Origin: Balneolaceae bacterium
GTDB taxonomy: Bacteria > Bacteroidota > Rhodothermia > Balneolales > Balneolaceae
Assembly: GCA_003561515.1 (NCBI GenBank)
Contig: PWWL01000053.1
Coordinates: forward strand, 1 to 37,184
Length of the DNA stretch: 37,184 bases
Direction: 5' to 3'
Shown: positions 20,699-21,330 of the stretch, in pieces
Layout: the number at the start of each line of letters is the position of its first letter
Numbering within the stretch: position 1 is the first letter of the stretch
The notes under the pieces: model-generated
Seen by the model: the letters and a program-made list of their open reading frames with translations, nothing else
Database searches by the model: none
What the model was told of the DNA's origin: nothing
Made by a program: the position numbers and the translations under genes

Positions 20699-20742
20699 TA
20701 TTGTCTGCAATCCAGTACTTCCGAGGTTATGCAAGTGGTTAA

Positions 20743-21276
20743 CACTGCTTCGAAACATCAACGCTCAGATCTATAAAATGGATAGATCTTAAATAAGGAA
20801 GAAGGGAAAAGTGGGCCTGGAGGGACTTGAAGCCCCCGAAGCACTGCTTCGGAACATCAACGCTCAGATTTGCCCACAGGAAAAAATCAAAAAAGGGGGC
20901 TCGATGGGCAACAATTGAAATCCGGGAATTGGCATCGAAACAGGCTACAACCGAAGCACTGCTTCGGAATATCAACGCTCAGATTTGCCCACAGGAAAAA
21001 AATCAAAAAAGGGTGCTCGATGGGCAACAATTGAAATCCTGGAATTGGCATCGAAACAAACTACAACCGAAGCACTGCTTCGGAACATCAACGCTCAGAT
21101 TTGCCCACAGGAAAAAATCAAAAAAGGGGACTCGATGGGCAACAATTGAAATCCGGGAATTGGCATCGAAACAGGCTACAACCGAAGCACTGCTTCGGAA
21201 CATCAACGCTCAGATCTATAAAATGGATAGATCTTAAATAAGGAAGAAGGGAAAAGTGGGCCTGGAGGGACTTGAA
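20743..21276. repeat. 115-bp tandem repeat array bounded by 89-bp direct repeats that include a tRNA 3' end
   Basis: Three units of 115, 116 and 115 bp start at 20836, 20951 and 21067, and a fourth, partial unit starts at 21182. Each begins with the perfect palindrome CCGAAGCA-C-TGCTTCGG and contains TTGCCCA/TGGGCAA and CAATT/AATTG inverted repeats. Outside them 20743-20831 and 21188-21276 are an 89-bp direct repeat with a single mismatch. Each copy contains GATCTAT/ATAGATC and ends with the last 20 nt of the CAT-anticodon tRNA (minus strand); the right copy is part of the intact tRNA. Reading frames through the array exist on both strands but simply repeat with it and are not believed. Confidence 0.92.
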
Positions 21277-21330
21277 CCCCCGACCAATCGATTATGAGTC
21301 GACTGCTCTGACCGACTGAGCTACAGGCCC
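21257..21330 (-). tRNA. tRNA with CAT anticodon, tRNA-Ile2 or elongator tRNA-Met
   Basis: A 74-nt cloverleaf with acceptor GGGCCTG/CAGGCCC, D arm GCTCAGTCGGTCAGAGC, anticodon stem TCGA/TCGA around CTCATAA, T arm GGGGG-TTCAAGT-CCCTC and discriminator A; CCA is not encoded. The CAT anticodon alone does not decide the identity. The GACTCATAATCG core and TTGGTC variable region resemble bacterial tRNA-Ile2 (lysidine-modified by TilS) more than elongator tRNA-Met. Its last 20 nt are duplicated at 20812-20831. Confidence 0.93.

Follow-up and report, generated by a model that had tools for sequence, protein, structure and literature searches.

In many tRNA and tmRNA genes of a single bacterial genus, units of about 100 bp are found again and again at the same exact position, each time with the 3′ end of the gene regenerated. 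We consider these units to be, probably, minimal non-autonomous mobile elements that insert at the GGTTC of the T-arm and restore the RNA gene, with recombination building arrays from them. As far as could be found, the family has not been described previously. One of the arrays lies in the window, by which we mean the whole stretch of 37,184 nucleotides of the Balneolaceae contig PWWL01000053.1 that was analysed.

In the window, a tandem array (Table 1) is bracketed by two copies of an 89-bp direct repeat that differ by one mismatch, at 20753, and it is located downstream of a tRNA-Met(CAT), since this tRNA is encoded on the minus strand. A previous reading of the letters alone (the sequence-only reading) had proposed an array of about 115-bp units between such repeats, directly behind a CAT tRNA whose 3′ end is duplicated, and Tandem Repeats Finder and repeat comparison, together with ARAGORN and Rfam for the tRNA, bore this out. 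In the sense of the tRNA, the order is tRNA-Met, its 3′ end, a short trailer, module M0 and the inner units A, B and C, followed by the displaced tRNA 3′ end GGGGGCTTCAAGTCCCTCCAGGCCCAC, the trailer repeated and a decayed last module, with the palindrome of inner unit C directly abutting the displaced tRNA piece. The part common to tRNA-Met and the displaced copy comprises about 21 nt when matched exactly and about 25 nt when one extra base is allowed, this base being a C in the displaced T-loop (GGGGG-C-TTCAAG vs. GGGGGTTCAAG). The numbers in the sequence-only description of the unit were right, with the correction that the array has units of two kinds: three inner ones of 115-116 bp, which are free of tRNA sequence, and a single outer one containing the tRNA 3′ end. 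Its statement that the array shows no separate terminator, so that it might be transcribed with the tRNA, agrees with our search for intrinsic terminators in the window, which found none between tRNA-Met and the first unit; within the array, only the palindrome resembles a terminator on the minus strand, and its T tail is poor.

Table 1. Positions of the array components in the window, and of related loci in other genomes
Feature	Position	Strand	Basis or remark
Intact tRNA-Met(CAT), gene with duplicated 3′ end	21256-21330	-	ARAGORN; Rfam RF00005, 74.7 bits
Right copy of 89-bp direct repeat: tRNA 3′ end, trailer, start of M0	21188-21276	-	Repeat comparison
Module M0: AGATCTGAGCGTTGATGTT plus palindrome CCGAAGCAGTGCTTCGG (tRNA sense)	21182-21217	-	Sequence
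Tandem array, period 115, 3.3 copies, 95% matches, score 709	20836-21215		Tandem Repeats Finder
17-bp palindrome CCGAAGCACTGCTTCGG, four copies in array	20836-20852, 20951-20967, 21067-21083, 21182-21198		Sequence
Inner unit A, 115 bp, no tRNA sequence; own palindrome (21067-21083) at tRNA-sense end	21067-21181	-	Tandem Repeats Finder; homologous inner units on own-genome contig C92
Inner unit B, 116 bp, palindrome 20951-20967	20951-21066	-	Tandem Repeats Finder and own-genome unit search
Inner unit C, 115 bp, palindrome 20836-20852, then displaced tRNA 3′ end (tRNA sense)	20836-20950	-	Tandem Repeats Finder and own-genome unit search
Displaced tRNA-Met 3′ end, T-stem to nt 74, one extra C in T-loop	20811-20835	-	Sequence comparison with tRNA
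Left copy of 89-bp direct repeat: displaced tRNA 3′ end, trailer, decayed module M4	20743-20831	-	Repeat comparison
Decayed last palindrome TTTCGAAGCAGTGTTAA (tRNA sense), array end	20737-20753	-	Sequence
tmRNA with displaced own T-arm/3′ end	L136 1259-1624; L144 1098-1463; L145 1162-1531; L148 1545-1912
Dispersed subfamily loci (G022, G001)	L024, L028, L052, L143, L153-L157, L160-L164		Inserted in low-complexity GGTTCAAGGTGCAGGG-type DNA

A scan of the window with Rfam gave only tRNA at gathering score, and the array had no match to rtT even at a permissive E-value. Weak matches to the XIST A-repeat and to Plastid-ycf2 were taken as chance or tRNA-derived; the latter (RF04354, 32 bits, below cut-off) falls on the plus strand of 21256-21330, antisense to tRNA-Met, and this Rfam family may itself be derived from tRNA antisense. 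A 136-aa ORF at 20827-21237 was rejected as a gene, being an artefact of the repeat, and a phage origin of the unit was discarded after IMG/VR returned no match. Elsewhere in the window, an Rfam tRNA match of 37 bits on the plus strand (2352-2425) that ARAGORN does not call may represent a divergent tRNA or a pseudogene, and the contig end (1-165) carries short-period arrays, ATTGTTG repeated 5.4 times and a CAATCTG-based one.

The sequence-only reading had proposed searching for the unit in its own genome and in relatives, and both searches found it at further tRNA loci. Matches to the 116-bp unit number 15 in the genome of the window and fall on contigs C328 (the window), C92, C139 and C261/C290, the last two probably being one copy split by a contig break. 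Contig C92 holds a second array behind another tRNA-Met, with inner units homologous to those of the window and a match of 69% over about 400 nt that comprise the inner units plus the tRNA-derived part. The copy on C139 lies behind the 3′ half of a tRNA-Arg and that on C261 behind tRNA-Pro(GGG), and all 14 exact palindromes of this genome fall within these loci. Across the genus (Balneolaceae, Rhodohalobacter group), the palindrome SCGAAGCANTGCTTCGS or CGAAGCANTGCTTCG is present in 23 of 28 genomes, most of them fragmented MAGs in which arrays often stand at contig ends, and the pattern searches favour, and so over-sample, close matches. A reversed-pattern control gave no match in 27 of the 28 genomes and one match per strand in G005; chance is no serious alternative for the recurrence of the palindrome. 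Among 92 genomes of the family, the module was found in 20 of 28 genomes of the window's genus and in two of four genomes of another genus, the remaining genomes being without it. A scan of the whole collection found unit bearers to be mostly Balneolaceae MAGs, plus Rhodohalobacter sulfatireducens, and the isolate names suggest that these MAGs come largely from salt and soda lakes. A unit together with tRNA-Arg(ACG) was also seen on a contig labelled Pleurocapsales (L053, JADEXJ010000221.1, coverage 2.5); this tRNA and a Balneolaceae tRNA-Arg(ACG) (L062) differ in one T-stem pair, and the contig is probably contamination of the cyanobacterial assembly.

Altogether 119 palindrome copies were examined, of which 95 remained after removal of near-duplicates. 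GGTTC stands directly after the palindrome in 46 of these 95, against a background of 0.0013 per position, and in 29 an intact tRNA is found on the same strand within 120 nt upstream, at a distance of 58-106 nt, mostly 74-87. Among the 32 units beside a tRNA, the displaced sequence matches its own tRNA strictly better than any tRNA with another anticodon in 26 cases, the exact match having a median of 18 nt and never exceeding 24, compared to a median of 6 for other tRNAs. In the cleanest cases (11 of 32), exactly 23 nt are displaced, from G52 to nucleotide 74 (C74). Host tRNAs cover at least 10 anticodons, for Met, Ala(GGC), Arg(TCG, TCT, ACG), Pro(GGG, CGG), Asn, Glu, and Leu, and tRNA-Asp is a further host known from L018. 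A second, rarer junction lies just past the T-loop (CCC...; L055, L063, L071, L076). Moreover, the host range extends to tmRNA: in G003, G011, G017, and G013 the tmRNA gene, confirmed by ARAGORN, has its own T-arm and 3′ end duplicated behind the palindrome SCGAAGCANTGCTTCGS (Table 1). At L152 the sequence resembles these loci, but ARAGORN calls no tmRNA there. When module M was aligned with tRNAs, anchored at GGTTC in a pseudo-tRNA frame of 22-56, the score was 7.05 of 19 at the predicted offset and 7.2 at an unrelated one.

Two further kinds of locus were observed. Displaced tRNA pieces at L046, L047, L049, L080, L247, and L251 have a hairpin like GATCCCTTYGGGA in the T-loop, which represents a second recurrent hairpin type. 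At the non-tRNA locus L056 (3860-4300), a protein gene is followed by a terminator hairpin that contains GGTTC, and the stretch reaching from this GGTTC to the T tract is present twice, as though an RNA 3′ end had been the unit of duplication.

Empty and filled orthologous sites could be compared at tRNA-Ala, which in this genus sits upstream of the 4.5S RNA gene. The gap between both genes measures 62-87 nt and lacks a unit in G005, G012, and G016, which are empty sites, while ten genomes (G002, G004, G007, G008, G010, G013, G020, G023, G025, G026) have filled sites with one or two palindromes 72-81 nt past the tRNA, and those that preserve the displaced 3′ end have about one unit of additional gap length. 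The insert of G014 resembles a unit whose palindrome has decayed, and its displaced T-loop contains an additional hairpin; G011 and G018 have other inserts. Some of the differences between filled and empty sites could be losses. For the locus in the window this comparison fails because no orthologue carries a tRNA there: the orthologues of the flanking gene lack tRNA-Met at that place, and no empty orthologue was found. Among the genomes compared, a recent insertion is seen in no strain-level pair. As in integrative elements, the insert is bordered by direct repeats of the tRNA 3′ end and the tRNA is intact, which is seen both in the 26 of 32 units whose best match is their own tRNA and in the empty and filled sites.

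The sequence-only reading had left two origins side by side, integration of a small element at the tRNA 3′ part and unequal duplication of a block. The former holds for the step of origin, given the recurrence of the module at many tRNAs and tmRNA, the empty versus filled orthologous sites and the fixed GGTTC boundary; the latter holds for the tandem copies within one array, which are near-identical in the window and at L029, L057, L077, and L168. A purely local accident, with the tRNA 3′ end and trailer of each locus copied separately by template switching at hairpins or by unequal crossing-over and no mobile element involved, would account for such near-identical tandem units and for the locus-specific bodies at tRNA loci. 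It is unlikely, and as the origin it is refuted because the module is common to unrelated sites: the same palindrome of 15-17 nt, usually with the same upstream module, is shared by unrelated tRNAs, tmRNA and non-tRNA sites. For the growth of arrays once a first unit has inserted, local recombination is nevertheless the best explanation. The bodies of successive units in an array may differ (L066, L009) or be nearly identical (L029, L057), and therefore repeated insertion and tandem duplication both occur; the different bodies, and the body sequence that dispersed G022 copies have in common at unrelated sites, argue against the local accident.

That palindrome-ended units move follows from a dispersed non-tRNA subfamily in one genome, G022. 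In this genome and its relative G001, at least 12 copies of a two-hairpin unit of about 100 bp, ending in the palindrome SCGAAGCANTGCTTCGS, occupy unrelated sites with bodies that are 84-100% identical, as expected of MITE-like elements. Their right flanks begin with GGTTA, GGTGC, GGTTC, and similar sequences, and hence the target is like GGTTC. A 23-bp target duplication at the dispersed G022 copies gave no match above shuffle level, and a simple fixed-length target-site duplication, usual for MITE-like elements, was rejected for the dispersed non-tRNA copies. The sequence-only reading had named frequent occurrence of the unit away from tRNAs as what would make it an ordinary dispersed repeat; this is found in G022 and G001, but not in the genome of the window, where all 14 palindromes lie beside a tRNA or a tRNA 3′ half. 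At tRNA loci, bodies are common mainly to the same tRNA in different species, and such locus-specific bodies would seem to fit old or tRNA-specific insertion better than frequent jumping from tRNA to tRNA.

The outermost pair of the palindrome is G-C in 55 copies and C-G in 28, four further double compensatory changes keep the stem paired, and broken pairs occur mainly in decayed or doubtful copies. These substitutions support maintenance of the palindrome by selection or by a copying process. Covariation of the stem is also what would be anticipated of a functional RNA or tRNA-processing element, in which tRNA and unit form one transcript whose palindrome and duplicated T-arm serve 3′ processing or work as a small RNA in the manner of E. 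coli RttR; that units keep a constant orientation and spacing relative to the 3′ end of the RNA gene, and that no terminator precedes the array of the window, points in the same direction. This function is nonetheless improbable: many tRNAs and several whole genomes of the genus lack the unit, displaced 3′ ends have decayed at L071, L072, and L147, the RNA gene is separated from the palindrome by a terminator hairpin in many relatives, including at tmRNA and several tRNAs, and dispersed copies are found far from tRNAs.

Short repeats ending in hairpins with a strand-specific orientation recall REP elements, in which a Y1 (TnpA-REP) transposase would use single-stranded hairpins to spread the palindromes, and Y1 transposase genes are indeed present in 25 of the 28 genomes. 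However, G011 (98% complete) and G006 (95%) have no PF01797 match yet contain eight and six palindromes, palindromes and Y1 genes show no correlation (rho -0.12), none of 30 Y1 loci adjoins a tRNA, and duplication of a tRNA 3′ end is not a property of REP units. Y1/RAYT was rejected as mobiliser, and the reading, largely refuted by the Y1-less genomes, is very improbable.

A more substantial rival concerns single-domain GIY-YIG genes. At least 15 of 30 located ORFs of this type in the genus follow a tRNA of the same strand at a distance of no more than 350 nt, and 11 of the 30 have a significant displaced copy of the adjoining tRNA, counts that are a sample since many loci had no located ORF; the corresponding figure for adjoining a tRNA in the Y1 control is zero of 30. 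In the displaced copies, a palindrome or hairpin often takes the place of one arm (L246, L248, L252, L236, L274, L277, L279, L287), for example TCCCGAGACTTCGGGA instead of the anticodon arm of tRNA-Asp, and a palindrome in or next to a displaced tRNA copy is a feature of GIY-YIG loci and of the array of the window alike. The layout of tRNA, GIY-YIG ORF and displaced tRNA recurs in other families of the phylum, at tRNA-Lys (L274), tRNA-Val (L277 and L288), tRNA-Asp (L279), and tRNA-Asn (L287), and four loci join a GIY-YIG ORF and the palindrome module at one tRNA (L018/L248, L074/L238, L080/L250, L081/L254). On this basis, and with a precedent in fungal mitochondria (PMC3630166), the units might instead be passive or degenerate derivatives of tRNA-parasitic GIY-YIG elements, consisting of a free-standing nuclease gene in a tRNA gene plus a replacement tRNA 3′ part, and be mobilised by the same nuclease. 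We hold this to be possible but doubtful. Palindrome and GIY-YIG copy numbers show no positive correlation over 28 genomes (Spearman -0.31, p 0.11), G009, G012, and G024 are rich in GIY-YIG genes without having palindromes, the palindrome sequences differ between GIY-YIG loci and units, and the displaced copies at GIY-YIG genes often start further 5′, in the D-arm, versus the T-arm in the units. Because the copy numbers do not correlate, we do not claim that the GIY-YIG nuclease moves the units; its role as their general mobiliser is not supported by co-occurrence and is retained as a rival. The array of the window has no GIY-YIG ORF between the intact tRNA and the displaced tRNA part. NCBIfam has no name for two of the GIY-YIG proteins, and a search of open-access papers on bacterial GIY-YIG with tRNA and on tRNA-linked palindromes, which is weak evidence, returned only fungal mitochondria or unrelated work.

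Returning to minimal non-autonomous elements as the preferred reading, the following scenario can be proposed. Non-coding units of about 90-120 bp, bounded on their 3′ side (tRNA sense) by the perfect palindrome SCGAAGCANTGCTTCGS, would insert immediately 5′ of GGTTC, where the T-loop of tRNA and tmRNA genes begins, through a putative enzyme that recognises the palindrome plus the GGTTC of the T-arm. A replacement 3′ end, supplied either by the incoming unit or by repair of the cut, would keep the tRNA functional, and the old 3′ end would be pushed outward and be free to decay. In the window, inner 115-bp units with the same palindrome would have been added after the first event, with unequal recombination between identical repeats thereafter. 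In a wider and tentative extension, to which we give rather less than even credence, there may exist a class of minimal selfish elements homing to the T-arm of tRNA and tmRNA genes, which carry a replacement 3′ end and leave the displaced end marked by a palindrome; its autonomous members, with only a single-domain GIY-YIG nuclease, would occur across Bacteroidota, non-coding units such as those of the window array would be the non-autonomous members, and E. coli rtT would be the fossil of a like process. Single-domain GIY-YIG genes are common in Bacteroidota and mostly unexplained, and they become possible tRNA-homing nucleases.

tRNA and tmRNA genes are well-known integration sites, and the elements known from them are large and carry integrases. 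Genomic islands integrating through tyrosine recombinase att sites at tRNA 3′ ends resemble the units in their insertion in the 3′ half of a tRNA, in the intact tRNA and in the displaced fragment as a direct repeat. In contrast, the units end in a perfect palindrome and are far too small for an integrase; being non-coding and 90-120 bp long, they encode none. Neither an integrase nor another enzyme could be linked to them, and among the loci read no shared gene was seen beside them. REP/BIME elements and MITEs are likewise short, palindromic, dispersed and non-coding, but the units target the GGTTC of the T-arm, duplicate the 3′ end of the RNA gene and show no Y1 dependence. In the mobile ORFs of fungal mitochondria (Allomyces atp6; Glomus atp6, atp9, cox2, and nad3), the element brings a replacement 3′ end of the gene and the native end is displaced (PMC3630166). 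This displacement of the native 3′ end of the host gene is common to our units, whereas the fungal elements have protein genes as targets and contain an ORF for a homing endonuclease, and the units are non-coding and of 90-120 bp; the tRNA-linked GIY-YIG genes of this phylum would be the closer counterpart of the fungal elements. The closest known system to the units is the E. coli tyrV-rttR repeat. As checked on the sequence of E. coli K-12 MG1655, rttR behind tyrV repeats the last 19 nt of tRNA-Tyr in three displaced copies, which are spaced at 178 nt and each have hairpins upstream, and tyrV/tyrT rttR (rtT RNA) thus has, like the array of the window, tandem units directly 3′ of a tRNA with hairpins and the tRNA 3′ end. 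Its displaced copy starts inside the T-loop (AATCC...), whereas the units described here start at GGTTC; it lacks the palindrome SCGAAGCANTGCTTCGS, there is no evidence of the E. coli unit moving, and it is found at one tRNA operon of E. coli, to our knowledge being confined to the tyr operon, whereas the present units are found at 10 or more anticodons and at tmRNA. The origin of the long-standing E. coli tyrT/rtT repeat becomes testable in a genus where such repeats are common.
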